In this document: positions 43,271 to 61,365 of the stretch, one piece after another
Layout: every line of letters starts with the position of its first letter
Position numbering within the stretch: the first letter of the stretch is position 1
Source: Prostheceraeus crozeri
Lineage: Eukaryota; Platyhelminthes; Polycladida; Euryleptidae
NCBI GenBank assembly: GCA_907163375.1
Contig: CAJQUW010005778.1
Location: 62,001-126,000 of the forward strand
Length of the DNA stretch: 64,000 nt
Direction of reading: 5' to 3'
The notes under the pieces: generated by a model
The model's database searches: none
The model's input: the letters and a program-made list of their open reading frames with translations, nothing else
What the model was told of the DNA's origin: nothing
Translations under genes and position numbers: made by a program

Positions 43271-43304
43271 AATCGGCTAAAGCCAGAGGAGCTTCGCTCC
43301 GATT
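43271..43304. repeat. Double-hairpin palindrome in left TIR
   Basis: ATCGGCTAAAGCC joined to AGAGGAGCTTCGCTCCGAT. The inner hairpins are GGCTAAAGCC and GGAGCTTCGCTCC; the outer ATCGG/CCGAT also pairs. The inverse copy is in the right TIR (61107-61140). Confidence 0.85.
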
Positions 43305-43366
43305 TGGGCGTTTTTAAAAATACCCAATTTTCAAATTTTTCAAAATCTCAAAATTTGAGAATTACA

Positions 43367-43398
43367 ATCGGGCGAAGCCCTAGAACCTTCGGTTCGAT
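43367..43398. repeat. Double-hairpin palindrome in left TIR
   Basis: ATCGGGCGAAGCCC joined to TAGAACCTTCGGTTCGAT: hairpins GGGCGAAGCCC and GAACCTTCGGTTC. The inverse copy is at 61012-61043. Confidence 0.85.
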
Positions 43399-43611
43399 TT
43401 TCATTGCTTAAATCATGACCGTTCCAGGACACCAAAAATCATAAAAGTTGAGAATTTCAAATTTGTGATTATGACATTTTTCATTGCTTAAATCATGACC
43501 GTTCCAGGTCATGTAAAACCGGACACCGAAAATCATAAAAGTTGAGAATTTCAAATTCATGAATTTTATCCATCTTTCAGGTTTTTAAAATATATCATGT
43601 GACTAAAAATA

Positions 43612-43672
43612 TTTGAAGGAATTGACATATTCTTAACAATAAGTTTAGGTACTTTTACAATTGTCATTCAAG
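43612..43672 (+). repeat. Duplicate of part of the membrane-protein gene
   Basis: The stretch from AGGAATTGACATATTC to CTTTTACAATTGTC matches 45657-45710, the first transmembrane segment of the gene at 45430, with about four changes in 52 bases. It lies just inside the left TIR in the same orientation and has no open frame of its own. Copy 2 has it too (about 62036-62095). Confidence 0.8.
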
Positions 43673-43904
43673 GGTAGAGAACATCTGCTTCCCGCATTTA
43701 TGAATAAAATGCATTTCAGTGTAAGGAGCTGTGTCCTCCAACTCAAACATTTGAAAGGAAACAATGTATGAAAGAACAAACAGCTGCTACACCCACTTAT
43801 TCATTTGTAAAGACGTGGCGTATAATTGCAGCATGTAGGAAGTAAGACTTCATTTACAATTCCATTAATCATAACTAGTGACTGTTTTCTTTCCTTATTG
43901 CAAA

Positions 43905-44510
43905 ATGCCAAAACGTACTGCCGCAGAAGCTTTTTCGTTTTACATGCCGATTTTACTAAACTTAATTAAAGAAGAGCACAAGGAAACTGCGAATAAATAC
44001 TTTGAAGAGTGGAAGTTAGAAATTCAATCGAGAAAGAAGAACAAATTGGACTCTCAAAAACAAGTGGAGGATATTACAGTAAAAATAGAACAGTATCTTA
44101 ACACTACTACAATTCCTCAGTTCAATGTTACAAAAGAACATTTCATTACCATCGAAGATAGTGCTACTATGATTTCAAAACTGATTGCAAGTGATAAAGT
44201 GCACCATGGGTCGTTGCTGAGAAGTGCTGCTTATCAAGGTTATGGATTTAAAAGAATTCTGGAATTGAGTGACAATAAAAAAAACAGATTTGTGGCAAAC
44301 TTGGAACTATTTAGAATTTCCTATAACGTAAGTTATTGTTATTTCTTGATGAACTTATCAGATCTAATTCTACCACACGTATTATTTTTAAATTCATCAA
44401 TGCCCATTAGTTTTGTTAGAAAACATTTTAAAGAAATCAAAATTTATATAGAAAAATTGAATCAACCGACAACTATAGAAGAAATGAGGTTTGGTTCCCA
44501 AGATGAATGA
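43905..44510 (+). CDS. Unknown Polinton protein, 201 aa
   Basis: I do not recognise this protein. I chose the ATG at 43905 (MPKRTAAEAFSFYMPIL); the frame extends upstream only through a GTG. It is mostly helical and basic, with no signal peptide or clear transmembrane segment. The middle has ITIEDSATMISKLIASDK, which could bind DNA, but that is only a guess. It is intact, and the copy in the second element (62326-62931) is identical in sequence. This conservation contrasts with the frameshifts in the core genes. Unlike most genes here it lacks the T-run plus TAAAAATG start context. Confidence 0.7.
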   Translation: MPKRTAAEAFSFYMPILLNLIKEEHKETANKYFEEWKLEIQSRKKNKLDSQKQVEDITVKIEQYLNTTTIPQFNVTKEHFITIEDSATMISKLIASDKVHHGSLLRSAAYQGYGFKRILELSDNKKNRFVANLELFRISYNVSYCYFLMNLSDLILPHVLFLNSSMPISFVRKHFKEIKIYIEKLNQPTTIEEMRFGSQDE

Positions 44511-44601
44511 ACATTAACTGTGTTGTTTCACTTTTTAAGATATGTGCAATGTACATACATATTTGATGTATACATATTTATGAAGACTTCTTTATAAGTA
44601 G

Positions 44602-45172
44602 TAACGCATTTTGGATTATTTTGAAATGTAATTAAATTTTCTTTTGTTCTCCAGTCTAATGGTAGTAGACTGACATTGTACAATTGTATGATAAGATTGA
44701 TTGTTGTATTATTATATTTGATATTTAAGAATGATTCATGGAACTTAGTAGTATTGCATTTTGGATTATTTTGAAATGTAATTAAATTTTCTTTTGTTCT
44801 CCAGTCTAATGGTAGTAGACTGACATTGTACAATTGTATGATAAGATTGATTGTTGTATTATTATATTTGATATTTAAGAATGATTCATGGAACTTAGTA
44901 GTATTGCATTTTGGATTATTTTGAAATGTAATTAAATTTTCTTTTGTTCTCCAGTCTAATGGTAGTAGACTGACATTGTACAATTGTATGATAAGATTGA
45001 TTGTTGTATTATTATATTTGATATTTAAGAATGATTCATGGAACTAATTAGTATTGCATTTTGGATTATTTTGAAATGTAATTAAATTTTCTTTTGTTCT
45101 CCAGTCTAATGGTAGTAGACTGACATTGTACAATTGTATGATAAGATTGATTGTTGTATTATTATATTTGAT
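44602..45172. repeat. 150-bp tandem repeat, about 3.8 copies
   Basis: Units start GCATTTTGGATTATTTTG at 44606, 44756, 44906 and 45056. Copies are nearly identical. Because 150 is divisible by three, one minus-strand frame stays open through the array and reads a 50-residue repeat (each with LLPLDWRTKENLITFQNNPK). The second element has the same array with a different first spacer. Whether the repeat protein is made is unknown. Confidence 0.9.
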
Positions 45173-45253
45173 GCAAAATACACTGCCGTTGTTTTCATTT
45201 TCCTGTACAAGAAGTAGACATTATTACAGTTATTGGAATTTATTTCATTTAAA

Positions 45254-45502
45254 ATGAATGATGAAAATCCGACAGTTATACTGAGTAATATAGGTGATAT
45301 ATTACCTCAGGTTAATAACATGACTGAGTTCTTAGAAATATACGACAAACAAACAACTACGTATTTCGATTTAAATAGCATTTCAGAAGATTGTTTTCAA
45401 AATATTTATTCAAAATATTTCTTTAAAAAATGGAAGAAACAAAAATGGAAGAAACCGCAAGAATATATCCTTCGTTATCATATGAACGTAGTTCTACTTT
45501 AA
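45254..45502 (+). CDS. Small unknown Polinton protein, 82 aa
   Basis: The ATG at 45254 sits in TTTAAAATG, the start context shared by most genes of the element. The N-terminal half is acidic and hydrophobic (PTVILSNIGDILPQVNNM), with a basic, aromatic end (KYFFKKWKKQKWKKPQEY). It overlaps the next gene by 73 bases in another frame. It is identical in copy 2 (63669-63917). Function unknown. Confidence 0.5.
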   Translation: MNDENPTVILSNIGDILPQVNNMTEFLEIYDKQTTTYFDLNSISEDCFQNIYSKYFFKKWKKQKWKKPQEYILRYHMNVVLL

Positions 45503-46122
45503 TGGACATTGAAAAGATTAACATTGAAAAAATGAACATTGAAAAACACAAAGATAGAGTACGCTATATGAAAGATAAGGAATCTCAATTATTATTAAGA
45601 TTAGAGCATTATAAAAAATTAAGAAAGAGATGGACTAAAGTTAAGAATGTAACACAAGGAATTGGCATATTCTTAACAATAAGTTTAGGTGCTTTGACAA
45701 TTGTTATATCTTCAGGTGTTTTAGTAATTCCAGTAGTTGCTACAGCTTTAACAGGTACGGGTGTTTTTGCAACTTCACTTGTTACAATGTTAGATAAATC
45801 TTTAATAACTAAGAAACGAAAATCATTAAAAACTAAGCATTTACATATTAAAGAAGTCTATGATAAACTACATTACTACTTTCAAAGAGTATGTGATGAT
45901 AATGTTATTACGTTAGATGAGATTGAAAAATTTGATCTAATAGCTAATGAAGTAAATCAAACCTTTCAATTACAGTCCGAAAAAGTTGATGATAAGAATA
46001 GACAGGATGGCAAAATTTCTAGTGATGGCAAAATTTCTAATGAAGAAAATGACAAAATTTTTTTAGAAGAGCTAAAAACTTTAAGCGAAAATTTAAGCAA
46101 AACTTTATTGAACAAAACTTAA
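45430..46122 (+). CDS. Coiled-coil protein with a membrane hairpin, 230 aa
   Basis: The ATG at 45430 lies in TTTAAAAAATG. The N-terminal 80 residues are a charged coiled coil (EKHKDRVRYMKDKESQLLLR). Residues about 77-120 form two closely spaced hydrophobic segments (GIFLTISLGALTIVISSG and LVIPVVATALTGTGVF), a likely membrane hairpin. A second coiled coil and an acidic tail with a short repeat (DGKISSDGKIS) follow. It is a plausible membrane-associated or morphogenesis protein. I know of no assigned function. The DNA for its first membrane segment is duplicated beside the left TIR. Confidence 0.65.
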   Translation: MEETKMEETARIYPSLSYERSSTLMDIEKINIEKMNIEKHKDRVRYMKDKESQLLLRLEHYKKLRKRWTKVKNVTQGIGIFLTISLGALTIVISSGVLVIPVVATALTGTGVFATSLVTMLDKSLITKKRKSLKTKHLHIKEVYDKLHYYFQRVCDDNVITLDEIEKFDLIANEVNQTFQLQSEKVDDKNRQDGKISSDGKISNEENDKIFLEELKTLSENLSKTLLNKT

Positions 46123-46243
46123 AACGAGAAAACTTTAAACGAAAAGATGTCAAACAACAAAGCAATAAAAAAATAATTTGTTCAGTAAAATGTTTTTGCT
46201 GTATTCCAATGTTACCACAAAATTCAAATATTATATTTTAAAA

Positions 46244-47061
46244 ATGGATAAAATTAGAGCTGATAATTTTAAAAGAATAAAACAATTAGAAGAGTTAATA
46301 AAACAAAGAAATATTATGAAAGAAAATCATCTTCAACATAGAATGATAAAAGCTGGTATTCAATCTGATATGTTTGAACAAATGCAGCAAACCGAGCAAG
46401 TAAAAACTGATTTTGAAAAAACTATGAAACCATTTAAAACTCTTGAAAAAGAACTTAATGATAAACAAATTGATATAACAGATCCAGAGCACAAAACTAT
46501 ATTAGATGACTATGGATTACTAGAATCAAACATTAATAAGAAATTACCAAAATCTATGCAATTTGAACATTCTATCTCATTATAGATGGAAAAACAATAC
46601 CTAGATTTTATCTCGGACAAAAAGAAATATTTCCACAACCTTTTCGAGGTTTAATTTTTTCACCAGATAAATCTCCTTTTAATTTAGATAGAAATTTTGT
46701 TAATCTTTTAAGAGGAGCAGATTTAAATAATTATGCTGTAGAAGATCTCATAAAATATAAAGCTATGTTAGACAGAGTTGGTGCAGTAAAATCTCTTAGA
46801 CGTTATAAACAATTAGAAAATTTATTATCAACGGGAGTTAAAGTAGGAAAAGGTTTATCTGAAAAACAGAAAACTGAAACAACTGTATTTTTACCAGATG
46901 ATCCACAAGAATTACTAAATAGATTAAATATTTTAATATCTGCAATAAAAGAAGGACATAATTCTAGTTTCAATGAAATTCATGCTATATTGAAAAGACT
47001 GTTAGAAAAGAAGATTCTAAATGAAGAGGATTATAAAAGTATAACGAACCGAATGATCTAG
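46244..47061 (+). pseudogene. Unknown Polinton protein with one frameshift
   Basis: The start is at 46244 (MDKIRADNFKRI) in TTTTAAAAATG. The first part is coiled-coil (LEELIKQRNIMKE). A single frame change near 46575 separates it from IIDGKTIPRFYLGQKEIFP and a long helical C-terminus (TTVFLPDDPQELLNRLNILI). If continuous it would have about 270 residues. The stop codon (TAG, 47059-47061) is part of a double-hairpin palindrome, so the palindrome may have trimmed the C-terminus. Function unknown. Confidence 0.6.
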
Positions 47062-47110
47062 GGCTTCGCCCGAACCGGACATCTCTGATGTCCTCCAGGG
47101 CTTCGCCCGT
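47058..47110. repeat. Triple-hairpin palindrome at gene end
   Basis: GGGCTTCGCCC, then GGACATCTCTGATGTCC, then GGGCTTCGCCC again. Its first bases (CTAG) supply the stop codon of the upstream gene. Confidence 0.85.
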
Positions 47111-47176
47111 AGCTGAAATATGTTGTTGTTTTACTTTTTTCATAAAAAAATATTTATTTAATTTTTTAGTTTAAAA

Positions 47177-47965
47177 ATGTGTTCAGCAGATTTAGACAAA
47201 ATTAATAATCATTTAGAAAATTTGATAGAGATTTTGGGTTCATCAAAATTTAGTACGACGTTAAAAATTATAACAACTACTTCATCACACACTTGTAATT
47301 TAGAACCCATTCTACATTTGGAACAAAATAAAAATTATCAAATTGCATTGACTAGTTTCTCTACATTTAACACTATTCAAAACGTTATCAAAGATGTGAA
47401 AGATCAATTTAGATATTCTACTGATAAAGGCAAAACATGGAAAATACTAACTTTTCTTCCTGGTTCTTACGAAGTTGAATCAATATCAAATGAAATTAAG
47501 AGAAATTTAGGTATATCATTTAAAGATAAGAAACAATTACATTTTGCAGTTGAACCGGCAGTTAATAAATTTTCTCTTACTTTAGACGAAAATCATCAAG
47601 TTGATTTTAATCATGATAGATCATTGTCAAAGCTATTAGGATTTAATAAACAAACCTATAGTCAAGGTTATCATTTAGGTGAGAAGATTCCAAAAATAAC
47701 TGAAATAAATTCAATTGTTGTACATTGTGACATTATTGAAGGAGGATATATAAATGGTAAATTATCAAATTTAATATTCAGTTTTCCAGCTTTTACTGTA
47801 CCCATTGGTTATAGATTAAATGTATTTCCACAAACATTAATATATTTTCCTATTACAAGAAAAACTATTAACAACATTAACATTAGAATCACTGATGAAA
47901 AAGGACAAGAAATAAATTTTGGAGGTGAAGAGATTATGATAGATCTTTTGGTTCGGGAGGTATAA
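47177..47965 (+). CDS. Probable penton / minor capsid protein, 262 aa
   Basis: The start is at 47177 in TTTAAAAATG. The protein is intact and beta-rich. The stretch YQIALTSFSTFNTIQNV, then FRYSTDKGKTWK, and FLPGSYEVESISNEIKRNLG follows the pattern I associate with the single-jelly-roll minor capsid (penton) protein of Polintons and adintoviruses. The C-terminus (INFGGEEIMIDLLVREV) fits a final capsid strand. It lies directly upstream of the packaging ATPase, as in other elements. I am moderately sure; a structure prediction would decide. It is one of the few core genes here without a break. Confidence 0.6.
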   Translation: MCSADLDKINNHLENLIEILGSSKFSTTLKIITTTSSHTCNLEPILHLEQNKNYQIALTSFSTFNTIQNVIKDVKDQFRYSTDKGKTWKILTFLPGSYEVESISNEIKRNLGISFKDKKQLHFAVEPAVNKFSLTLDENHQVDFNHDRSLSKLLGFNKQTYSQGYHLGEKIPKITEINSIVVHCDIIEGGYINGKLSNLIFSFPAFTVPIGYRLNVFPQTLIYFPITRKTINNINIRITDEKGQEINFGGEEIMIDLLVREV

Positions 47966-48018
47966 ACTCCTACGCGAAGCTAGAGAAGTTTAAACTCCCA
48001 CGCGAAGCTAGAGAAGTT
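47948..48018. repeat. Palindromic tandem at gene end
   Basis: GGAGGTATAAACTCC spans the penton stop codon. It is followed by two copies of AAACTCC-ACGCGAAGCTAGAGAAGTT-type sequence. Position and composition match the other 3'-end palindromes. Confidence 0.6.
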
Positions 48019-48074
48019 TAATTTTCTTCATCTTTAGAAACAAAAAAAATAAAAATAAAATTTTTTATTAAAAA

Positions 48075-48841
48075 ATGAGTGAAGTACTACCATTAAATAA
48101 AAAAAAACTTAAATTTAATCATCATCCAAATTTATCTAATAAAGTTTTGTCAGTTATTTGTGGAAGATCAGGTTGTGGAAAAACGTATCTATTATTTAAA
48201 ATTTTAACGACTCCAAATTTTTTGGATTATAATAATCTTATAATTTATACAACAACAGCAGAACAACCCGTCTATCAATTTTTAAAATATGGATTTGAAA
48301 ATAATCTTAAAAAAACAGCAATTGCTTCATTATTCAAAGAATATGAAAAATCTGAAGATGAAGAAGAAATAAGTTCGTGGTGTGAAGAAGCAGCAAAAAA
48401 TAATCAGTTAGTAGAATCTAATAAAAATAACCATATAAAGATACAATTAATAGATGATAGTGGTAATATGCAAGATCCTAGTAAACTAGATAAAACAATG
48501 AAACATTGTGTAATTTTTGATGATTGTGTTAATGATAGAAATCAGTCAGTACATAGAAATTATTTCACAAGAGGTAGACATAATAACTTTGTGTTTTTTA
48601 TTTAACACAAAGTATGTATTCATTAGACGGAAGTGTTATTAGAAAGAATGCAAATATATTTATACTATTTGAAATAAATGCAAGAAACTTAAGTGATTTG
48701 TTAAGAGATTTATGCGTAAGAAATAAAGATGAATTTAAACAATCGTGTAATAATGCTTGGTCAAAAGATTATGGCTTCATTACAATTAATATTGATAAAA
48801 AAATTCATGAAAGAGTTATCGAAAATATTTTCGCGGAGTGA
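48075..48841 (+). pseudogene. A32/FtsK-like packaging ATPase, one frameshift
   Basis: The start is at 48075 in TTATTAAAAAATG. Walker A is CGRSGCGKTYLLFK (about residues 30-43) and Walker B is KHCVIFDDCVND (about residues 143-154). A sensor-like FTRGRHNN follows. The first frame ends at 48605, but the protein continues in another frame (YLTQSMYSLDGSVIRKNANI, then a helical end). The change lies at a run of six T (48594-48599), so an assembly error is possible. Together the parts give about 255 residues, the normal size. Such ATPases pump DNA into virions. Confidence 0.85.
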
Positions 48842-48923
48842 TAAAAATATACAAATATAGTGTTACAATATTTTTTTTTATTTTATATATATATCAAATT
48901 TGTCTATCTTAGAAATTAGAAAA
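48842..48923. terminator. Convergent gene-end spacer
   Basis: A short AT-rich spacer between the 3' ends of the ATPase (plus) and polymerase (minus), with a T8 run and ATATATAT. No palindrome of the GC family is present. Its role as a transcript end is inferred from position. Confidence 0.35.
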
Positions 48924-49155
48924 TTAAAAAGGTTCAGTAGTTATTCCATCAGGTAAAATTTTTCTTTTATCATCAAATGGATCTAATGCTAATTTATGTT
49001 CTTCTTTTAAATACATGTTATGTTTTTTTGAATTAAGTCTATAATTACATGCTGTTTTTATTTCATTATTAAATAATACATTTTTATAATCTTGAAATGT
49101 TATTTGATTAGCCACTGATGCCTTTGAAATTCCTTTTAATGTTTTATGTGTTTTA

Positions 49156-49189
49156 ACGGGCGAAGCCCTGGAAGACATCTCCGATGTCC
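49156..49189. repeat. In-frame double-hairpin palindrome (polymerase)
   Basis: ACGGGCGAAGCCC then GACATCTCCGATGTC. Read on the coding strand it gives TSEMSSRASPV, between the motif C region and the C-terminus. Confidence 0.85.
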
Positions 49190-50092
49190 TAATATTATTA
49201 GTTGTATCATAACAGTAACATTTAGATTTTAAAAATATAGCTTCTGTTATGAAATCTTCATTTCCTTCTAATTCATCTTTTACTTTACATAAATCAGAAG
49301 GATGAATGATATCTTTTATTTTATCTATTTCTTCATCAAGTGTAGAATTATACGGTATTGTTAATTCTAAGAAAACAGAATCGGTATCTGTAAAGTGTAA
49401 TTTATAGTTTTTTGCCATAAGCAGGTGCTAAATAATCATATATAAATCTATACATAAATAGTTTAGCTAATTCTAATATAGTGAAACCAATAAAATTAAA
49501 CTTATCATGTTTTACGCTAATTCGACGTAAATGTGCAGCACATAGTTCATCACTAAATCTAGTAGTTCTTTTATATGTAGGTTTCCTTGTTAAATTTTGA
49601 AACCTATCTTTATCATAAACTATTTCAATATTTTGTCTATTACGCACATTTTCTAAAGTCTTACCATAAAATGCATTATTCATTAATTTGAAGAACACGT
49701 TTCCAAAATCATCTTTATTTCTTTTAGCTATTTTACGTTTTTCAATATTGAACTCTATATAATTTTTTAACCATTTAGATTTTCTATACTCTAGTTTTCG
49801 ATGTATTTTGGTGAGAATCATTCCATGATCTAAATACCAATCTAGCATTCTTCCTTCAACAACATACTTTCCTTTATTGCTTTGTGTTAACATAAGTTTT
49901 TTTGTTGGTCTATATTTCTTAGGAATTAAAGATTTTTGATAATCTGAAAAATCTTCTATATTAGGAATTTTGTTTTCGGGACAGAAAGGAAAATATTTTG
50001 TTTTATCTTTTATATAATCAGGGTATACTAAATCAACTTCATATACATAACCAAAATTATTTTCACCATCATATGTTCTTTGATAATCTAGA

Positions 50093-50128
50093 ACGGGCGA
50101 AGCCCTAGTAGACATCTCTGATGTCGTA
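50093..50128. repeat. In-frame double-hairpin palindrome (polymerase)
   Basis: ACGGGCGAAGCCC then GACATCTCTGATGTC. The coding strand reads TSEMSTRASPV, shortly after motif A. Confidence 0.85.
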
Positions 50129-50467
50129 CGAATATTACACCATGACATTTCACCTGTTGGTAATTCTTGTATCATGCAAGAAGAATATAAGCTATTAAAA
50201 TCATAATATAACAAATAGTTTTCTCTCATGAATTCATCAATTGCTTTTTCACGTTCTACTCCTTCTCGTTTCGTTCGAAAAATTTCTAATATTTTTTCTT
50301 TTTCTTCTGGAGATAAAGGTTTCATTATTCCATATTCTTGTGGATTTACTTTCTTATTATAACATTTAACATATCTATTACCTAAAACTGATGAAACTCC
50401 ACCTCTAATTCCAGATTCAAAAAATAATAATTTATCATATGTATTTTCTTTATAATGTTTAAGTTTA

Positions 50468-50498
50468 ACGGACTTTGTCCTAGAGCCATCGGCTTGAA
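50468..50498. repeat. In-frame double-hairpin palindrome (polymerase)
   Basis: GGACTTTGTCC then AGCCATCGGCT. The coding strand reads QADGSRTKSVK, after the WLAGLKHTG block. More diverged than the others. Confidence 0.65.
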
Positions 50499-51218
50499 CA
50501 CCAGTATGTTTTAATCCTGCTAGCCATGTTAAACCTGGTGTAGAATAACAATAACATGGATCTATTCCGTAATATTCTAAACACATATCACGAAAGTTTT
50601 CAAAAAGATCAGCTAGTATTAATACATCTATCTGTAGATATTTCATTGTATAATCATACATTGTTTTACAATTTAACTCTCTCCAATTTTTTTCAGCTTC
50701 TGCATAGTCTTCGTCAGATAATTTTGATTGTTTTAATGTTGATTTAAATTTATTTATTGGAGGAAGTTGTTCTTCTTCCATAATTTTATTCACAGAATTA
50801 AAATCTGTCTTCGACTGTGAACCACAGGTTTTATCTCCAGTTATATACTCATACGGAAATATTCCTTTTAAAGGTTTTAAATTATATTTATTTAATATTT
50901 TACATTGTTCAGATTTCAAAGTTTTTCCCATAACATCTAATGAATAAGGAGTAAAAAATCTAAATGCATCTAAAATTCTAATGCAACCTAATTGCATTGA
51001 AAAATATTCTTCTTCTGTTTTACATAGTACATTTATTTGTTGTTGTTGTAATTTTTCAGATGAAAATAAATCTTTCATTACTAGATGGAAATCATATTTA
51101 GAACCATTGTAGAAATATATAGGAAACAAAGTTATATTTAAATTTATTAGCATTAAGATTACAAGAATTATGTGCTGCACCTCTATATAATCCATTTAGA
51201 TGATCATGATCTTTTACC

Positions 51219-51250
51219 TTGACGGCAGAGCCGTCGCTTCGCTTGTCAAG
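51219..51250. repeat. In-frame nested palindrome (polymerase)
   Basis: GACGGCAGAGCCGTC inside a longer CTTGAC...GTCAAG pair. The coding strand reads LDKRSDGSAVK, directly before the HNH-like KDHDHLNG. Confidence 0.75.
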
Positions 51251-53320: not shown

Positions 53321-53325
53321 CATGT

Positions 53326-53355
53326 ACGGGCGAAGCCCTAGAACCTTCGGTTTGT
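53326..53355. repeat. In-frame double-hairpin palindrome (polymerase)
   Basis: ACGGGCGAAGCCC then GAACCTTCGGTTTG. The coding strand reads QTEGSRASPV. It immediately neighbours the previous palindrome. Confidence 0.85.
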
Positions 53356-53606
53356 ATGGTCTCATCTTCACTATTAAAAACTTTTTTATATTCCGAATGT
53401 GAATAATCATCAAACATTTTTTTAACTTTTATATCAGTAGGCAATGTTTCTAGATAGTTTTTATAACTATTTAATTTTAATATATTTCCTTCATCAACTC
53501 GTTCTACATTTTGTAAATGCAATTTACTATTTAAATGAGATTGATAACTTCTTTTTGTTTGCAACTTTTTTTTACATAAGACACAATAAAACTTGGTATT
53601 TTCCAT

Positions 53607-53763
53607 TTTTTTATTTTTTAAGGAAAAATTTGTGTTTTAATTTTAGATATAAACATTCTAATATTTAGGACTTGAGTGTTATTTTATATTATTATATATT
53701 TCACGTTCTTTAGTTATTTTTTTCTTTATCACATTAAGTTTTATCATATTAAGTTTTATCTTA
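53607..53763 (-). promoter_or_regulatory. AT-rich upstream region of the polymerase gene
   Basis: On the minus strand the polymerase ATG is preceded by T-rich sequence ending TTTTTTAAAAAATAAAAAAATG-like context. Part of this spacer (53735-53775) is a short tandem repeat containing TTAAGTTT(T/C)ATCATA. The promoter role is inferred. Confidence 0.45.
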
Positions 53764-55059
53764 TTAAGTTTCATCATATAATGTTTTATCAAAAGATAAT
53801 TTAAATTTTTTTTCACTAACTATTGATTCATCATCATCATCATAAATTGTTTCTTCATCATCATCATAAATTGTTTCTTCATCATCATAAATTACACTTT
53901 TTGGTATAGGATGCCCTTCCATGATAGGATACCATTCTCTTATTGGAATATCTAATTCTAAATTACATCTTTTATCTGATAATAATATAATAGAGAAAAA
54001 TATTGGTCTTTGATCTCTTTTGGAAAATTTAATAACACCACCATAATTTGAATCACTTTTAGTTTTAGTTAAAGATGATAAAATTTTAAATTGATTAGAT
54101 GTAAATCCTAATTTAAATTTTGTAGACCCGACACATAGTTGTCTAACAGTATCTTCAACTATGCCATCATTATTATTTTCAATTGTAAGAAAATGAAATT
54201 TAGATAAATTTTTATAATTACTAATATTTTTATAATCTTTTTTACCATTTACACCTTTTTCAGATGTTACAGAATCATCATTATTATCATAAGATTCTCT
54301 AAGATCGGGCAAAGCCCTAGAACCTTCAGTTCGTTTATTATGAATATGATTATGGTCATTGTTAATAGTATAAGGTGTAGTCCACATATAAATTTTCTCT
54401 TGTTGAGCTAAACCATTTATATAAGATTTTAATAAATTAATATTTAAGTTGGAATATAATCCTATATACGTATCATCATCATATCTTTGGGGCATTTCTA
54501 ATGTTTCTTGTTTATAAATTGTGTCTCTATAATAAACTTGACATAATAATTCTTCATTATGTTTTTTACTTTCAATATGAATATTGTATTGATTTTGATC
54601 ATCAACAAATAATCTTATTTTTTCTTTGGAAAAAGATTTTAATTTTTTAACTAATTCTTTAATATTGATATAATTGATAATTTTAGTTTCTATCCAATCA
54701 GTATTACTAATTGGTAACACTGCTCTAATAAATCCATAAACATTATTATGACCTATTATAACCATATTTTCTTTATTTAATTCAACATAAGCTACATCAT
54801 TATATTTACTTACAATCTCCATAAATTTAATAAATGGATCCCCCGGAAATAAACAATAATTAGTTTCTATAGAAGGTAAACCTTTAGTCTGTTCTCTAAA
54901 TATTTCGGCTTGTAATTGAAATAAAATATTAACATCTATACATGGATTATTATTATTATTATTATCAAAACATTTATTTTCAAATCCCGTTGATCTCGTC
55001 GAATAAGAAGAACAGGATGATGCGGGCGAATATAATTTTTTTAAATTTGGATTTTCCAT
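53764..55059 (-). CDS. Unknown 431-aa protein, possibly sliding-clamp-like
   Basis: An intact protein, transcribed towards the polymerase gene. It starts at 55059 in TAAAAAAATGG. Two similar halves are suggested. Residues about 80-190 (VAYVELNKENMVIIGHNNV; INIKELVKKLKSFSKEKIRL) and 290-370 (FKLGFTSNQFKILSSLTKT; RPIFFSIILL) resemble the strand-helix-strand layout of PCNA-type clamps. This is inferred from pattern only. In between lies a palindrome-encoded insert (RTEGSRALPD). The C-terminus has a short acidic repeat (YDDDEETIYDDDDE). Its position beside the polymerase fits a replication accessory factor. It could instead be an unrelated structural protein. Confidence 0.45.
   Translation of the reverse strand: MENPNLKKLYSPASSCSSYSTRSTGFENKCFDNNNNNNPCIDVNILFQLQAEIFREQTKGLPSIETNYCLFPGDPFIKFMEIVSKYNDVAYVELNKENMVIIGHNNVYGFIRAVLPISNTDWIETKIINYINIKELVKKLKSFSKEKIRLFVDDQNQYNIHIESKKHNEELLCQVYYRDTIYKQETLEMPQRYDDDTYIGLYSNLNINLLKSYINGLAQQEKIYMWTTPYTINNDHNHIHNKRTEGSRALPDLRESYDNNDDSVTSEKGVNGKKDYKNISNYKNLSKFHFLTIENNNDGIVEDTVRQLCVGSTKFKLGFTSNQFKILSSLTKTKSDSNYGGVIKFSKRDQRPIFFSIILLSDKRCNLELDIPIREWYPIMEGHPIPKSVIYDDEETIYDDDEETIYDDDDESIVSEKKFKLSFDKTLYDET
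54304..54334. repeat. In-frame double-hairpin palindrome (clamp-like gene)
   Basis: ATCGGGCAAAGCCC then GAACCTTCAGTTCG. The coding strand reads RTEGSRALPDL. It sits between the two putative halves of the protein. Confidence 0.8.
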
Positions 55060-55248
55060 TTTTTTATTTTTATTAGAAAAAATTTTATTTTTTATTTTTA
55101 TTAGAAAAAATTTTATTTTTATCAGAAAAAATTTTATTAGAAAAAATTTTATTTTTTATTTTTATTAGAAAAAATTTTATTTTTATTAGAAAAAATTTTA
55201 TTTTTTTATTTTTATTAGAAAAAATTTTATTTTTTTATTGTTTTAAAA
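55060..55248. promoter_or_regulatory. Divergent promoter region with AT tandem repeat
   Basis: This spacer lies between two divergent genes. It consists of about eight copies of a short unit close to TTTTTATTAGAAAAAATTTTA. Both start codons sit at its edges in T-run plus TAAAAATG context, so it probably drives both genes. Confidence 0.6.
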
Positions 55249-55581
55249 ATGATGTTACCAAATGTTGGTGGAGGTGCATATATCCCGAATAATCGTGAAT
55301 TAGAAATAGAGATAGAAAATTATATTATGAAAACTGGAGACGTTTTATCTGGTCCATTGCATCTTTCTATTCTTCCACAACAAAATACAGAGTTAACAAA
55401 TAAACAATATGTTGATGCACAAATCAATGACTTAAAAGAAAAATATATAAACGATGTTTTGGTTCCACTGATGAATGAATTGAAGTTGCTTAAACTTAAT
55501 GACAAATCATTAAACGAAAAATTATTAAAACTTGATAAAAAGGATAGAGAGCTAGAAAGCAGATATAGCAAAACTTTTTAA
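55249..55581 (+). CDS. Small fibre-like protein, 110 aa
   Basis: The start is at 55249 in TTTTAAAAATG. Residues about 27-60 read MKTGDVLSGPLHLS then ELTNKQYVDAQI. This matches the collar motif of many phage tail-fibre proteins (GDxMTGPLxL...NKxYVD). The rest is a coiled coil (NELKLLKLNDKSLNEKLLK). A short trimeric fibre or spike on the particle is a reasonable inference. No receptor-binding head is present; one could be on the next gene or lost. The motif is short, so confidence is moderate. Confidence 0.55.
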   Translation: MMLPNVGGGAYIPNNRELEIEIENYIMKTGDVLSGPLHLSILPQQNTELTNKQYVDAQINDLKEKYINDVLVPLMNELKLLKLNDKSLNEKLLKLDKKDRELESRYSKTF

Positions 55582-55665
55582 AAAGATTTCTGAACAATCA
55601 AAAATTTTAATATACTTTCTTTAAATTTAAAATCTGCTGTAATTAAAAATAAACATCAGATAAAA

Positions 55666-56139
55666 ATGTTAAAAGAACAATTAGAAGATGAAATAGAAAA
55701 ACTACCTGAAAGAATTAAAAAAAATTTAAAGCAGTTACAAACTACATTCCAAAAAAGTGTTGATGAATTGAGTTCTAAAATTACTCAACAAATGAAAAAG
55801 ATGAATAGAATAATAAATGAAGTAAACTCACTTAATCAAAAAGTTGATAAAATGAAAACTCTTAAAATCAATTTAGAAAATGAATTAAAGAAAAATTTAC
55901 AAGAAAACTCTAAAGAAAATAAAGAACAGTTAGATTCTGTTAAAAGACAATTAGATGTTCTTAAAATTAAGTTAAATGCACTAAAACGGTTTCCGTTGAA
56001 GATTAATCAGCAGAAAATGCAAGTTAATAGAAAAGAAATTAAAGTACATCACACGCTGCTTGACGCAATAGATAAAGTGCAACAGTCAATTAATAAAGTT
56101 ATCTCGAAGTTGTTGTCCATTCACAAACGTAAATCTTGA
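55666..56139 (+). CDS. Coiled-coil protein, 157 aa
   Basis: The start is at 55666 in GATAAAAATG. It is almost wholly coiled coil (LEDEIEKLPERIKKNLKQLQ; KQLDSVK-like heptads) and highly charged, ending in a basic tail (SIHKRKS). It follows the fibre-like gene by 84 bases and may work with it as a stalk, but this is only positional inference. It is intact. Its stop codon is followed within 30 bases by a palindrome cluster. Confidence 0.6.
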   Translation: MLKEQLEDEIEKLPERIKKNLKQLQTTFQKSVDELSSKITQQMKKMNRIINEVNSLNQKVDKMKTLKINLENELKKNLQENSKENKEQLDSVKRQLDVLKIKLNALKRFPLKINQQKMQVNRKEIKVHHTLLDAIDKVQQSINKVISKLLSIHKRKS

Positions 56140-56164
56140 TCGACGAAGTCTTGGGTTTCTAACC

Positions 56165-56215
56165 TATCGGAGCGAAGCTCCTCGAGGCTTTAGCCGATCG
56201 GACCAAAGGTCCTCA
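56165..56215. repeat. Triple-hairpin palindrome at gene end
   Basis: ATCGGAGCGAAGCTCC, then GGCTTTAGCCGAT, then CGGACCAAAGGTCC. It lies 26 bases after the coiled-coil gene. The third hairpin, GGACCAAAGGTCC, is related to the one at 58930. Confidence 0.85.
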
Positions 56216-56271
56216 GGTTACTAACCAATCGTAAATATTTTTTTCTCAAAAGTCAAATTTAATCCTAAAAA

Positions 56272-56788
56272 ATGCCTATAATTTATAAACACAATCTTAA
56301 ACATTTTGCATCAAATAATAAAATTGCTCATGAACCATCTCAGAAACCTGTTGTACCATTATGATAGTGTAGAAACAGTCGGAACACAAAAGTTCCTAGG
56401 CACCGCAGGTGTCGTCCAAAAAGAAGGGGCTGGCATCTTTTCTGGTATTGGAAGTATCGTTAACTTAATTAAAAATAATAAAGATTTGATTACATCTGCT
56501 GCAAAAGGAGCAGCTGCTCTAGGTAGTACAGCTAGTGCAATATCAAATGCTGTTAAGTCTCAAAACGAATTAAAACAACTAGAAGCTATTCGTAAACTTA
56601 GGAATGATTCTGAAGAACTAAAAAATTTAAAAAAACTTTCAGATGAAACAAAAAATAAAATTGCTAACATAGCTGTGGGGGGTGAAACCTTGAGGAGCGG
56701 AGCTCCGTCTAATAGTAAACATAATGAAAATAAAAATAATAAAAAAACAATTGAAGAAATAAGAGGTAATGGGCTAGCAAAATTCTAA
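56272..56788 (+). pseudogene. pVI-like membrane-active virion protein, broken
   Basis: The ATG at 56272 (CCTAAAAAATG) opens MPIIYKHNLKHFASNN, which stops near 56363. The body is in another frame: GAGIFSGIGSIVNLIKNN, a glycine-rich amphipathic helix, then AAKGAAALGSTASAISNAV and a coiled coil (ELKQLEAIRKLRNDSEELK). This layout recalls adenovirus pVI-type and adintovirus small virion proteins that disrupt membranes. It lies directly before the major capsid gene. A palindrome at 56694-56706 adds LRSGAPS in frame near the C-terminus. The frame break near 56355 may be real. Confidence 0.5.
56694..56706. repeat. In-frame palindrome (pVI-like gene)
   Basis: GGAGCGGAGCTCC, a single hairpin of the family, read in frame as part of LRSGAPS on the plus strand. 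Confidence 0.7.
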
Positions 56789-56884
56789 AATTATATTTTA
56801 GTAAAATTATTTAAGTAAAATTTTTTTAGTAAAATTTTTTTCTGTCTGTGAGAAAAACAAAAAGTCAAATTATTTTTTATAAAA

Positions 56885-58215
56885 ATGTCTTCGCTTATCG
56901 AAAATAAATTTAGATTAGACGATCCTCCGTTCGTCAGTTATAATCAAAAAAAGAATGACTACATAAGAATTGCTATGAATCCCGGATCTTCCAGTAGAGT
57001 AAATACTGGAGGAGATTTAATTTTTGAAGTTGATAATCAGCAGAGTTATTTATATCTACCTGATTCATTTTTACACTGTGAATATTCTTTGTATAGTGAT
57101 GCCAATTTTACAACACCATTACCAGAAACCGATAATATTGCACTAGAGAATAATTTCTTTCCAAGATTATTTACACAAATGCGGTTAGATGTTGCAACTC
57201 AAAATATAGAAACAATAAGTGATTCTCCAGGTGTAATTGATACAATGCTTAGATTTGTAACAATTGGTGAAAATAATAAAAAGTATGAAATCGAAGGTTG
57301 GTTTCCTGATACTAATGATGGTATAATTGTTGATGATTTAACTCACGCTGGAGCAGATGCAGCAGGAATTGCGAAAGATGTAGAAAATATTGCAAAACAT
57401 TTAAATAAAACAAATAATGAAGCATATAAAGAAAGACGTGAATTTAACAAAAAAAGTAAACAGACAGTAAATTGGTCATTGTCTCCATTATTCGGATATT
57501 TAGATTATGATAAAATATCATATCAATTAAAATTTAAATTAATAATTCATCGTACAGCAAATAATGAATTAATCTTTTTGGTAAGACTGGGAAAAAAGCA
57601 TATTTAAAAATTGATAGACTTGAATGGTGGATTAAGCATATTACTCCTAGTTTAGAGGTTGAAACAGCTATTGCAAAAAGATTAAATACTAACAAACCAA
57701 TTCCAGTAAATTTTCTAAAGCGTACTGCTAGTTCAGTAACTTTTTCCGAACAAAGATTTAACTGGCATTTTACTAGAACTGCGAATACACCAAGATATTT
57801 ATTACTAACATTTCAAAGAAATAATTCTCCAAGTTTTGATAAGAACAACAATATTTTTCATATTAATACAATTCGAAGTTTACAAGTTTCATTAAATCAA
57901 ACCCGATATCCAATTGATCCATTAAGATTCGATGATACCAATAATCAATTTATGGAAGGATATGATTGTTATCGAAATCTTTGTACAGAATTTGGAGTTG
58001 AACCACAATTAACTCCTGGAGATTGGAGACATTTATATCCTGTTTTCTGTTTCGATTTAAGTGCACAATCTGAAGATATTATTAAAAATGGTTGTGATGT
58101 AACAATTAATATTGAAAGAAAGAATCCACCACATCATTGATGGCTTATGTTTATTGCTAGAAGATGTAAAATATTCTATTGAAATTCTTAATGGAAAGAT
58201 GGTAAGGATAGGCTA
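56885..58215 (+). pseudogene. Major capsid protein, double jelly roll, two frameshifts
   Basis: The start is at 56885 in TTTATAAAAATG. Beta-rich blocks match Polinton and adintovirus major capsid proteins: NDYIRIAMNPGSSSRVNTGG near the start, SYLYLPDSFLHCEYSLY, then a central linker and KQTVNWSLSPLFGYLDYDK. After a frame change near 57590 (at GGGAAAAAAG) come LEWWIKHITPSLEVETAI, TRYPIDPLRFDD and LYPVFCFDLSAQSED, then DVTINIERKNPP. A second change near 58135 leads to a final strand (EILNGKMVRIG). The TAA stop at 58213-58215 lies in a palindrome. Total about 443 residues. It forms the capsomers of the predicted icosahedral shell. Confidence 0.85.
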
Positions 58216-58240
58216 AAGCCAGAGGAGCTTCGCTCTGATA
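58210..58240. repeat. Double-hairpin palindrome supplying capsid stop codon
   Basis: TAGGCTAAAGCC then AGAGGAGCTTCGCTCTGATA. The TAA inside GGCTAAAGCC ends the capsid reading frame. Confidence 0.85.
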
Positions 58241-58244
58241 AGTT

Positions 58245-58430
58245 AATTAAAATTTTTTCATAACTAGAATAGATTAAAAATTCTTAACTTAAAAATTTTT
58301 CATAACTAGAATAGATTAAAAATTTTGGTAACTTAAAAGGTAACTAGAATAAATTAAAATTTTTTGGTAACTTGAAATTTTTTCATAACTAGAATAGATT
58401 TAAATTTTTGATAACTTAAAATTTTTTTAT
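58245..58430. promoter_or_regulatory. AT tandem repeat upstream of pX-like gene
   Basis: About five copies of a unit near TTTTTCATAACTAGAATAGA separated by TTAAAAATTT stretches. It fills the space before the gene at 58436 and probably contains its promoter. Confidence 0.5.
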
Positions 58431-58435
58431 TAAAA

Positions 58436-58921
58436 ATGTCGCAAGCGAAAAGTAATATTAATAATAAAACTGTTGAATTAAAATTACGTAATATTGTTGA
58501 CAAAAATACCCCTAAAACTATTACTATTAATAAAAAAAAGTATTACATAAGTAAACCAATGATAGAGAATATTCAATTACAAGAAGAAAAGAATGGCGGG
58601 ATTCTCCCATTAATTCCACTAATAATAGGTGGCATAGCTGCAGCAGGAAGTGTTGCAGGTGGGACAGCTGGTATTGTCCAAGCAGTAAATAAAAATAAAT
58701 CAGAGAAAGCAGCATTAGAAGAACAAAAACGACATAATAGAGAGTTAGAGAAAGTTGCTAGGGGTGAAGGAGTAGTAGATAATTTTATTAGTAAATTAAA
58801 ATTAGTTGATGAAGGAAAACGAGTTCTTAAAAATATTCTCCACAATGTTGATGATTTAATTGAAATTAAAGAAACTAAAGATGGTTCTGGAATATATCTA
58901 AGTCCTAGTATGATTCGGTAA
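58436..58921 (+). CDS. Small hydrophobic virion-type protein (pX/pVI-like), 161 aa
   Basis: The start is at 58436 in TTTTATTAAAAATG. After a basic N-terminus (ITINKKKYYISKP), residues about 55-85 form a Gly/Ala-rich hydrophobic helix (GILPLIPLIIGGIAAAGSVA, then GGTAGIVQAV). A charged coiled coil follows (KSEKAALEEQKRHNRELEK), and the C-terminus GSGIYLSPSMIR resembles the short G.GLYL.P ends of adintovirus small virion proteins. It is intact and precedes the PLA2 gene, a common arrangement. Likely a membrane-active minor virion protein. Confidence 0.6.
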   Translation: MSQAKSNINNKTVELKLRNIVDKNTPKTITINKKKYYISKPMIENIQLQEEKNGGILPLIPLIIGGIAAAGSVAGGTAGIVQAVNKNKSEKAALEEQKRHNRELEKVARGEGVVDNFISKLKLVDEGKRVLKNILHNVDDLIEIKETKDGSGIYLSPSMIR

Positions 58922-58923
58922 TA

Positions 58924-58949
58924 ACCTCAGGACCTTTGGTCCATAAGGT
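58924..58949. repeat. Palindrome at gene end
   Basis: ACCTCAGGACCTTTGGTCCATAAGGT; inner hairpin GGACCTTTGGTCC, outer ACCT/AGGT. It sits two bases after the stop of the pX-like gene. Confidence 0.8.
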
Positions 58950-58973
58950 AAAACATTTATTTTATCTTTTAAA

Positions 58974-59465
58974 ATGAATTCTACAAATTCCGAAAATTTA
59001 ACTAAATTAAAAATTTCTAATTTAGATTTATTGAATTATCTATTAAACAAAAATAAAAACTCACATTGTCAGGATATTGGAGGTGACAAGAACAAAGTTC
59101 CATACCACTTCGGTGGTGATATACAAAAAACATTAGAAAACTTTCCTGGATTTATTTGGAGTAAATATTCGAAAGAAAAACATCTTCCTGGTCATTCATA
59201 TACTGGTCCAGGAACTCGATTAGATATAAGACTAGATGAGAATAATAATCCGAAACCAGGTGAAGAACCAATAAATAGAGTAGATGCCGCAGCTTACAGG
59301 CATGATTAAGCTTATCGAAATCATGATCTAAGTTCTCGACATGCAGCTGATAAGAAGATGATTCAAGAATTAGATAGTATTCAGAATCCTACATTTAGAG
59401 AAAAAATTGAAAGAATGTTTGTTAAAAAAGCTTTACAAGCTAAATATTATTCGGTCAGGGTTTAA
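58974..59465 (+). pseudogene. Parvovirus-type phospholipase A2 domain protein, nonsense mutation
   Basis: The start is at 58974 in TTTTAAAATG. The PLA2 domain begins near residue 75: HSYTGPGTRLDIRLDE (calcium loop), PINRVDAAAYRHD (catalytic His-Asp), then AYRNHDLSSRHAADKKM after an in-frame TAA at 59307-59309. The frame runs on to 59465 and then meets integrase-type sequence in another frame (FGQGLNENHNLDVYASEIHK). The PLA2 and integrase segments may once have been one protein or closely spaced genes. In parvoviruses and adintoviruses this enzyme helps virions cross membranes. The nonsense codon truncates it at the active site. Confidence 0.8.
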
Positions 59466-60278
59466 ATGAAAATCATAATTTAGACGTTTATGCGTCTGAA
59501 ATCCACAAGGAATATAGAAGACCTAAATATTTATTGAAAGTAAAAGTATTTAATAAAGATGATATTTGGAGTGCTGATCTTATTCATATGCCGAATGAAA
59601 GGGACTACAAATACGCATTGACCGTTATAGATTTATATACACGATACGCTTGGGTAAAGCCTTTAAAAAATAAAAGTGGTCTATCAGTTAAATATGCGTT
59701 TGAAGGAATCTTTAAAGAAAGTAATAGAAAGCCAAGGAAATTGTTTGTTGATAAAGGATCGGAATTTTATAACCGAAACGTTCAGCCACTATTTGAAATT
59801 GGTTTATTCAACTGAAAATGCAGGAAAAGCTGTAGTGATAGAAAGATTCAATCGGACGTTAAAAAATAAATTATTCAAGAAATTTACTCAGCAAGGAAAT
59901 CAGAAATGGTTGAAGATATTACCAGGAGTTGTAGAAGAGTACAATAATAAAGTTCATTCTGGTATTGAAGAAACCCCAAAGAATGCTTCTGACGACCCTG
60001 ATTTGATACGAAAGAAAATATTCGAGAATAATAATTTGAATGAGAGTAATCCGAATTTGCAGAAACTTAAGCCGAAATTTAAAATTGGAGATAGAGTTAG
60101 AATATTTAAATATAAGAATAAATTTGAAAAAGGCTTTGTTGGCTATTGGACTAAAGAAATATTTGAAGTTTCTAAAATAAATCAAAGTTATCCGATTACT
60201 TATGAAATTAAAGATTTAGATAATGAGGATATCAGAGGTCGTTTTTATCAAAATGAATTACAGAAAACAGAGCTTTAA
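59447..60278 (+). pseudogene. Retroviral-type (rve) integrase, frameshifted
   Basis: IHKEYRRPKYLL leads into the catalytic core: DDIWSADLIHMPNE (first Asp), LTVIDLYTRYAWVKPLKNK, RKLFVDKGSEFYN (second Asp). After a frame change near 59800, ENAGKAVVIERFNRTLKNK (catalytic Glu) and EEYNNKVHSGIEETP follow. The C-terminal domain has KFKIGDRVRIFKYKN and ends NELQKTEL. All three acidic residues are present. Polinton integrases insert the linear element and make 6-bp duplications. No clear start codon is visible, which favours continuity with the PLA2 gene upstream. Confidence 0.85.
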
Positions 60279-60315
60279 CCTTTAGGTGGCGCTTTAGCTA
60301 GCTTCGCTTGAGTTA
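60276..60315. repeat. Diverged palindromes at gene end
   Basis: GGTGGCGCTTTAGCTAGCTTCGCTTGA, just after the integrase stop, contains AGCTAGCT and an imperfect GCTTTAGC/GCTTCGC pair. It looks like a decayed member of the family. Confidence 0.5.
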
Positions 60316-60341
60316 TAGATTGTTTAACTCTAACATAATAT

Positions 60342-60774
60342 CTAGAAATGATACTCTTTTTGTAATTTGTACAAAACGTATAAACATAATTGTCCACAAT
60401 AAGTAGTTCCCGGTTTTTGAATTTGAAACGTATTATAAATTCCATTGCCCAAGTATTTATGTTACTTCATTCGTAGGTGGAAGTCCGTATGAGTCAAAAT
60501 AATAATTTGAACAGTTTATATTTCTTTGTCCTGCTGACCAATGTACGCCTTTTTCATCTGACGTATGGAGATTGGTTACGAAATTTACAGTTATTGATGG
60601 AACTTTGTTCCGGGAACTGAAGGTTCCTGTTGGCTTATTTTTTAGGAATTGTAATTCGTCTCTCATTAGAACATGAAAATTCTTTATTCCTAATTCATTT
60701 GCGATTTTCTTTAGGTCGTAATTTGTCGTAGTTTGCGTTCCATATAATTTAAAAAACTTATTTATGTTGCTCAT
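60342..60774 (-). pseudogene. Adenain-like cysteine protease, one frameshift
   Basis: The start is at 60774 (TTATAAAATG on this strand). LKKIANELGIKNFHVLMRDE is the typical N-terminus. GVHWSAGQRN gives the catalytic His and YYFDSYGLPPTNEV the acidic residue. After a frame change near 60460 the protein continues in another frame with KYLGNGIYNTFQIQ and TYCGQLCLYVLYKL, which carries the catalytic Cys, to a stop at 60342-60344. About 143 residues in all. Such proteases mature capsid precursors. It is the only gene on the minus strand in the right part of the element. Confidence 0.8.
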
Positions 60775-60888
60775 TTTATAATAAAAAAATTTCTTAAGGG
60801 ACCCCTAGAAGACAGAAGGGAGGGGGTAGCAGAACTACGATCATATGATATTGAAGGATATATTCTTGCTGTTTCTTCCACTTTTAAA

Positions 60889-61365
60889 GAAATATTTTTA
60901 GACACATGATATATTTTAAAAACCTGAAAGATGGATAAAATTCATGAATTTGAAATTCTCAACTTTTATGATTTTTGGTGTCCTGGAACGGTCATGATTT
61001 AAGCAATGAAAATCGAACCGAAGGTTCTAGGGCTTCGCCCGATTGTAATTCTCAAATTTTGAGATTTTGAAAAATTTGAAAATTGGGTATTTTTAAAAAC
61101 GCCCAAATCGGAGCGAAGCTCCTCTGGCTTTAGCCGATTTATGAATTTAGGTCTTCATAACCTGAAAAAGGGTTCAAATTCATGAATTTATGTCGTTTTT
61201 AAAAATACCATTTTTTGAAAAAATGGTACTTTTTGAATGGACTAAATTCATGTATTTAGGTCTTAAAAACCTGAAAAAGGGTTCAAATTCATGAATTTAT
61301 GTCGTTTTTAAGATACCAATTTTTTTGCTTTTATGGTGTCCTGGAACGGTCTTTTACCCATTACT
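60889..61365 (-). repeat. Right terminal inverted repeat of Polinton
   Basis: The inverse of the left TIR, ending CCCATTACT directly at the gap. It carries the inverse copies of both TIR palindromes (61012-61043 and 61107-61140). It lacks the internal 100-bp duplication of the left copy. Confidence 0.9.

Follow-up and report, generated by a model that had tools for sequence, protein, structure and literature searches.

Polymorphic two-hairpin elements flanked by 2-bp direct repeats in Polintons of the flatworm Prostheceraeus crozeri

Results

A family of two-hairpin elements lies in a Polinton

The DNA analyzed here is a 64,000-nt stretch of the genome of the polyclad flatworm Prostheceraeus crozeri (contig CAJQUW010005778.1, positions 62,001 to 126,000), hereafter the window, which contains a Polinton at 43044..61365. 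The Polinton is bounded by inverted repeats at ~43044–43614 and 60890–61365, has the ends AG...CT and a GC content of 27%, and carries a DNA_pol_B_2 match at 49402–51195 together with weaker matches to AAA/Pox_A32 and rve_3; retroelement reverse transcriptase (RT) domains are also present in the window. A first-pass annotation had described at least 16 GC-rich modular palindromes in this Polinton, located in both terminal inverted repeats (TIRs), at gene ends and inside coding regions. The family is confirmed: elements of fixed geometry occupy 14 independent sites, and two further copies lie in the right TIR. Their distribution is also as described, with sites 43274, 43369, 61014 and 61109 in the TIRs, 47045 and 58210 at gene ends, and eight copies inside open reading frames (ORFs).

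The family is strongly enriched in the Polinton. GGGCGAAGCCC matches the window 11 times (0.15 expected) when at most one mismatch is allowed, and CGGAGCGAAGCTCCTC matches it 8 times (0.11 expected) when at most three are. None of these 19 matches begins before 43286; they fall within the Polinton or within the beginning of a second copy past a gap of Ns. The exact set of module hairpins occurs 20 times in 43044–61365 and not at all in 1–43043, which agrees with the earlier remark that the family is not seen elsewhere in the window. A sequence-blind scan for double hairpins, defined as any two neighboring GC-rich hairpins, found 10 in the Polinton, where 20 shuffles gave 0.3 on average; elsewhere in the window it found 9 and the shuffles gave 8.85. 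Likely degenerate relatives at about 50803, 56694, 58930, 60599 and 47952 are kept out of all counts, and a hairpin at 59104 is at most a candidate member of the family.

The core of the element consists of two adjacent hairpins, mostly 28 bp in total (range 22–37 bp), and sits between copies of a 2-bp A/T direct repeat; it usually starts with C and ends with G. Type A measures 28 bp: between its first C and last G lie hairpins of 13 and 11 nt, in this order, separated by 2 nt. Type B follows the plan C, 10, 3, 13, G (28 bp; 29 bp at 56168), and the long type has a second hairpin of 15 nt followed by a 2–6 nt tail, which brings it to 34–37 bp. The 22-bp unit at 51221 is of a different make. 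The modular two-hairpin design proposed earlier therefore stands, with the correction that it follows a fixed plan, C-hairpin-linker-hairpin-G, and is accompanied by a 2-bp direct repeat that the annotation had missed. In the long type, the tail between the second hairpin and the right repeat varies (CT, CC, CAT, CCATG, CCGCG, CCGTG; L078–L107) and the left end is constant.

The flanking dinucleotides (AT, AA, TA or TT) match at 13 of the 14 sites, and a 3-bp match occurs at none of the 14. When either flank is shifted by 1–6 positions, at most 3 of the 14 sites match. Of the nine 28-bp cores, in which hairpin geometry sets the ends, eight have the flank repeat; in the three long cores of the window, the right ends were picked with knowledge of the repeat. 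At four AA/AA sites, two of them with 28-bp cores, the repeat is direct and not inverted, and hence no continuation of the palindrome.

DNA folding recovered both hairpins in all six tested elements. Across eleven 13-nt hairpins of differing sequence, 91% of the pairs are kept, with 10 two-sided changes, a statistic that is partly a selection effect because the eleven were chosen as hairpins. The type A variant at 50469 has one compensated change in each hairpin. Covariation on six type-A cores alone is weak, since 38 of 500 shuffles reach the score. The coordinates of all elements are collected in Table 1.

Table 1. Elements of the family and the candidate nuclease region in the window.
Feature	Position	Strand	Flanks (left/right) and other evidence
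Type B, 28 bp, left TIR	43274..43301	+	AT/AT
Type A, 28 bp, left TIR	43369..43396	+	AT/AT
Type A, 28 bp, nested within the margin of a longer element; gene end, gives TAG stop	47045..47072	-	AA/AA; un-nested allele in L080
Remainder of the 36-bp longer element hit by the nested insertion	47075..47109	-	Reading of the sequence and L080
Long type, 34 bp, polymerase C-terminal ORF, +12 residues	49157..49190	+	AA/AA; empty in L031, L037
Long type, 37 bp, polymerase ORF, +13 residues	50094..50130	+	AA/AA; empty in L025, L026, L031
Type A variant, 28 bp, polymerase ORF, +10 residues	50469..50496	+	AA/AA; empty in L025, L026, L037
Other type, 22 bp, within endonuclease VII-like domain, +8 residues	51221..51242	+	TT/TT; filled and empty alleles
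Type A, 28 bp, polymerase ORF	51616..51643	+	AT/AT
Type B, 28 bp, polymerase ORF, +10 residues	52121..52148	+	AT/AT; P0060 lacks exactly those 10
Long type, 37 bp, polymerase ORF, tandem with 53327 element	53288..53324	+	TA/TA; alone in L024, L041
Type A, 28 bp, polymerase ORF, shares TA with 53288 element	53327..53354	+	TA/TA; alone in L030, L036, L037
Type A, 28 bp, in ORF 53764–55059	54306..54333	+	AT/TT; sole site of 14 without repeat
Type B, 29 bp, intergenic	56168..56196	+	AT/AT; unit number differs in L025, L026, L027, L030
GGACCAAAGGTCC + GGTTACTAACC element, 29 bp, tandem with 56168 element	56199..56227	+	AT/AT
Type B, 28 bp, gene end, gives TAA stop	58210..58237	-	AT/AT
Type A, right-TIR copy	61014..61041	-	Fixed-geometry match
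Type B, right-TIR copy	61109..61136	-	Fixed-geometry match
Polymerase ORF piece with endonuclease VII (HNH) motif CxxC..DHDH..CN; candidate mobilizing nuclease	51098..51895	-	PF02945

Filled and empty alleles among Polinton copies

The window was compared with 18 other Polinton copies of the same genome, each recognized by matches 16–22 kb apart among the first 100 listed. One piece of 6.5–7.5 kb was used per copy, and the aligned parts are 91–96% identical to the window. At eight clean sites (49157, 50094, 50469, 50846, 51221, 52175, 53184 and 53217) some Polintons carry an element and others do not; in the empty alleles the dinucleotide occurs once. The element is thus inserted with a 2-bp duplication and is polymorphic among Polintons of one genome, which supports the earlier suggestion of tiny mobile units.

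Site 49157 is filled in L033. Site 50094 is filled in L024 and L033, with AT instead of AA in the empty allele of L031, and L037 and L096 carry a type A copy at this place. Site 50469 is filled in L024, L031 and L033, and site 51221 is filled in four copies (L024, L031, L033, L037) and empty in nine. Four sites (50846, 52175, 53184, 53217) are empty in the window and filled in other Polintons. The flanks of the empty alleles are identical over 30 nt at 49157 (L031, L037), 52175 (window, L024, L030, L031) and 50846 (window, L024). Depending on the Polinton copy, the 53288/53327 pair is present as both elements, the first only or the second only. The copy at 47045 is nested, and the longer element around it is un-nested in L080. 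These comparisons leave out site 51588, which lies within a 15-bp repeat, and five calls of an empty allele at 53288 that are doubtful because their flanks also fit neighboring sequence. A swap of element type was seen in the 51616 region in L078, L079, L085 and L105, and at 53185, 53218 and 53288 in several loci.

Examined copies across the genome lie in Polinton DNA

The genome containing the window comprises 2.05 Gb, and copies were counted as exact matches, which gives lower bounds. At least 3341 copies of the type-A 26-mer, at least 1734 of the long-type 32-mer and at least 2366 of the type-B 28-mer were found, or at least 7,441 for the three core sequences together; the reversed controls gave 0. 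Twenty-eight distinct type-A copies were examined (32 rows, four of them duplicates). Twenty-seven lie inside an alignment to the Polinton of the window, and the remaining one (L044) has Polinton alignments on both sides. Among 30 long-type copies, Polinton sequence is present on both sides in 23 and on one side in 7. All 58 copies examined, which sample type A and the long type, are therefore located in Polinton DNA, on contigs that reach hundreds of kb, rather than in organelle DNA. The module hairpins are absent from sixteen 2.5-kb genome samples (40 kb) and from the 43 kb of host DNA in the window, so that in the host DNA sampled the motif does not reach the density found in Polintons; an equal density there would have spoken against the first-pass annotation. 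In some Polintons (G000:C205:1194014-1194255 and 1214803-1215045), two or three type-A copies occur ~108 bp apart in each TIR, and the TIRs therefore seem to expand by element-containing repeats.

Related polymerases lack the encoded residues

Polymerase relatives (59 proteins) were aligned with the window. At 50469, 55 homologs have residues at both anchors. In 44 of these the anchors are identical and the stretch measures 28 or 30 residues, compared with 40 in the window. At the tandem pair, where the window has net inserts of 39 and 30 bp, P0052 (60, 61 and 74% identical to the window over three pieces) is shorter by exactly 23 residues. P0060, which lacks the ten residues at 52121, is 88 and 87% identical in the neighboring pieces and 63% identical in the alignment spanning this site. 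Most relatives are also shorter at 49157 and 50094, but these loops are variable and a few relatives are of equal or greater length. SRASP-type and related motifs are absent from 68 homologs. The alignment proposed at the outset therefore reveals empty sites, and the relatives lack the peptides themselves rather than encoding them without palindromic DNA, as far as they were tested. The unique insertions of other homologs do not resemble the hairpin family when inspected by eye, and a search with ORF 53764–55059 returned no relatives. In a structure model (mean predicted local distance difference test score, pLDDT, of 70.7), two inserts fall in segments below 50, as do seven other segments.

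Genic copies mostly keep the frame and favor one strand and phase

All eight window copies inside ORFs keep the ORF open, add a multiple of 3 and contain no stop codon in the frame used. The net genic inserts are 30, 36 and 39 bp, and 24 bp at 51221; those outside ORFs include 31, 37 and 38 bp. Frames stay open because the 28-bp core and the 2-bp repeat add up to 30 bp. Seven of the eight have strand and phase in common, and RASP is encoded in five, which bears out the earlier observation of similar SRASP-type peptides. Stop codons inside elements occur at gene ends, at 47045 and 58210.

Where the strand could be determined, 10 of 11 genic sites of the main type agree in strand and phase and encode ...SRASP...-like peptides. 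Seven of the ten are in the window; other copies contribute 53184 and 53217, and 58768 belongs to a gene of the opposite strand. The single antisense site is 51588 (L031, L037, L041), and further genic copies in the genome map onto the same sites, all in sense. Given open frames and the codon positions of the A/T pair, the probability of ten of ten sites sharing strand and phase is ~1e-5, a figure that assumes independent sites and leaves the antisense site 51588 outside the product. We infer that this bias arises once elements have inserted, through selection on the protein, and does not reflect a rule of insertion.

Surroundings of the Polinton

The polymerase, capsid-like and integrase genes consist of overlapping ORFs in differing frames (49402–53606, 56885–58140 and 59300–60278), which gives them the look of a decayed copy. 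Almost identical tandem repeats of ~150 bp lie between the first genes of the Polinton (44597–45172), and a 52-bp coding stretch (45656–45707) recurs, 92% identical, at 43616–43667, adjoining the left inverted repeat. To the right of the Polinton (61366–64000), there is a gap of 100 Ns, beyond which a second, closely similar Polinton starts with its left end at 61466 in unchanged orientation; these are either head-to-tail copies or a scaffolding join.

Searches outside the P. crozeri genome

The type-A double hairpin has no match in IMG/VR, and type B and the long type had none in the same kind of distribution search. The exact type-A core, the one type searched there, is absent from bacterial and archaeal genome contigs. 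Thirteen matches of CGGGCGAAGCCCTRGAA were rejected as chance; they occur once each in stretches of 46–69% GC, and no family hairpin is seen by eye within 30 nt downstream. The polymerase piece has no match in phages, the ATPase piece no relative in IMG/VR, and the element no match in Rfam. Two distant Polinton-like loci of IMG/VR (L014 and L015) contain no GGGCGAAGCCC-type hairpin, and their double hairpins number 6 and 3 versus shuffle means of 3.0 and 2.1, respectively. Near a contig end, L014 has GC-rich hairpins and, after them, a tandem array of four almost identical double hairpins (13780–14304), with sequences unlike those of the Polinton family. Judged by title and the beginning of the abstract, no article listed in full-text searches of open-licence PubMed Central (PMC) papers deals with such elements in Polintons.

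Discussion

We consider it very probable that the family consists of non-autonomous micro-transposons living in Polintons, with two-hairpin cores of 22–37 bp that duplicate an A/T dinucleotide on insertion.

Several observations weigh against this interpretation. Site 54306 lacks the flank repeat. Seven of the 28 type-A copies examined in the genome are genic, and their flanks are identical in two (L055, L060) and one base off in five. The repeat found at 25 of the 30 long-type genomic copies is weak evidence, as six offsets were allowed; the right ends of this type vary by 2–6 nt, and those in the window were chosen with the repeat in view. The copy of L037 at 50094 is 27 bp long and, with a net insert of 29 bp, out of frame, and L096 has a 28-bp version. 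At single sites, insertion and precise excision are indistinguishable. Type A and the long type occupy the same place in different Polintons (50094, 51616, 53185, 53218 and 53288), and therefore module exchange by recombination between copies, or re-use of targets, acts besides insertion. The putative link to a nuclease consists of a domain match and the 2-nt offset attributed to that enzyme.

The main rival, which we regard as unlikely, is spread through RNA, in which the structured RNA of the element is copied by the RT of a host retroelement and inserted copy-and-paste. RT domains of retroelements occur in the window, and a route of this kind is also discussed for yeast GC42 in an excerpt of PMC4478555. 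The sense orientation of 10 of 11 main-type genic sites, in genes of both strands, and of all further genomic copies at those sites is in line with this route. However, the antisense site 51588 does not fit it, the phase is biased as well, which is not expected from insertion of RNA, and confinement to Polintons is hard to explain with a host RT.

Somewhat less likely still is that the family is old and no longer moves, and that recombination between Polintons only reshuffles presence and absence. The tandem and single states and the differing modules at five positions suggest recombination or conversion, and several copies are degenerate. On the other hand, exact cores are common to many distinct sites, the match of empty alleles extends over 30 nt, and new sites do not arise by reshuffling alone.

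Hairpins serve as signals for transcription end or RNA processing at Mimivirus gene ends, and the copies at 47045 and 58210, which lie at gene ends and supply the stop codon, could be read as functional hairpins of this sort rather than as mobile DNA. This we find very improbable, because eight window copies are inside ORFs and genic copies are missing from other Polintons and from relatives. RNA processing or recombination signals, the other roles proposed in the first-pass annotation, are accordingly unsupported as a primary function of copies that are polymorphic and often lie inside ORFs; elements at gene ends may nevertheless have a secondary use. Least probable of all is skipping of the inserts at the RNA or ribosome level, as with the byps of Magnusiomyces mitochondria. 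GC-rich hairpins within ORFs of an AT-rich element would suit such skipping, but it requires neither the multiples of 3 nor the stop-free frames found in all eight genic inserts.

As the filled and empty alleles show, the element inserts at an A/T dinucleotide and duplicates that pair. It must presumably be moved in trans, because it is too short to encode a transposase. It would spread within and among Polinton copies, also beside or into earlier elements (the nested copy at 47045; the tandems 53288/53327 and 56168/56199), and would gain copy number by riding in the TIRs. Insertions in ORFs would persist as linkers of 8–13 residues, because 30 bp are added and the core lacks stops in most frames, and selection on working Polinton proteins probably retains mainly in-frame insertions of one strand and phase. 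In the movement itself, the hairpins may be extruded while the Polinton replicates, a junction-cutting nuclease may make cuts staggered by 2 nt, and the hairpin strand may then be ligated or copied into another staggered cut.

The leading candidate for this nuclease would be the endonuclease VII-like domain of the Polinton's own polymerase gene. PF02945 matches the window piece 51098–51895 with E=0.0033, below the curated cut-off, and is above the cut-off in three of five relatives scanned (P0052, P0013 and P0014). The spacing from CxxC to DHDH is 28 residues in the window versus usually 10. Of these 18 extra residues, the 22-bp element at 51221 contributes 8, which leaves 10 that it does not explain. 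T4 endonuclease VII cuts ~2 nt from the junction, and such cutting of a hairpin-extruding unit could, as an unproven possibility, explain the 2-bp duplication. An endonuclease VII-like domain is already known in insect Maverick polymerases (excerpt of PMC5803895), and the substrates of the phage T4 enzyme include many branched DNAs (excerpt of PMC3157427).

The elements share with miniature inverted-repeat transposable elements (MITEs) the short length, the lack of autonomy and the target duplication. They are far smaller and have no pair of TIRs of a known transposase family. The Tc1/mariner superfamily duplicates TA, whereas the duplicated pair here is AT, AA, TA or TT, and this mixture does not fit a MITE of a known transposase superfamily.

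Yeast mitochondrial GC clusters have AG or ACT flanking repeats, and the mechanism of their amplification is open, according to an excerpt of PMC4478555. Allomyces mitochondrial double-hairpin elements consist of two hairpins, with evidence for mobility (cited in an excerpt of PMC7218506). Like these, the Polinton elements are GC-rich hairpin units of tens of bp in AT-rich DNA, with a short direct repeat where they insert (at 13 of the 14 window sites; single in empty alleles). Of the seven genic type-A copies examined in the genome, two have identical flanks and the rest are one base off. They differ from the yeast clusters in sequence, in the A/T-pair target, in the chromosomal compartment inside a virus-like transposon, and in being frequent and frame-preserving inside ORFs. 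The Allomyces elements are organellar, and the likeness to them is one of two-hairpin design. Rickettsia palindromic elements place palindromic DNA in frame in unrelated genes and encode a conserved peptide (excerpt of PMC10969869). The Polinton elements resemble them in that they, too, sit in frame in genes unrelated to each other and prefer one frame (8/8 window ORF copies; 10/11 for strand and phase). The Rickettsia elements are ~150 bp long and bacterial, whereas ours measure 22–37 bp, have a 2-bp duplication and are so far found in one kind of mobile element. Given these differences in compartment, size and sequence, the Polinton element is not a member of the GC clusters, the double-hairpin elements or the Rickettsia palindromic elements.

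A bolder version, which we hold to be doubtful, is that of a dedicated hyperparasite of Polintons, a foldable unit of 28 bp that is moved by the polymerase-linked endonuclease VII and continually adds in-frame linkers to viral replication proteins. If it were true, the hyperparasite would possibly be the smallest mobile DNA known from a nuclear genome, without termini beyond its own hairpins, and the 2-bp length of the duplication would follow from the 2-nt offset with which endonuclease VII cuts at the hairpin junction.

In mitochondria, micro-elements built of hairpins and bordered by short target duplications have been under discussion for a long time, with no enzyme known. The same design is now found in a chromosomal virus-like element, with thousands of copies, clean filled and empty alleles and a candidate nuclease encoded alongside, which makes the mechanism of mobility testable. 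The elements also keep feeding in-frame insertions into a polymerase of viral type.

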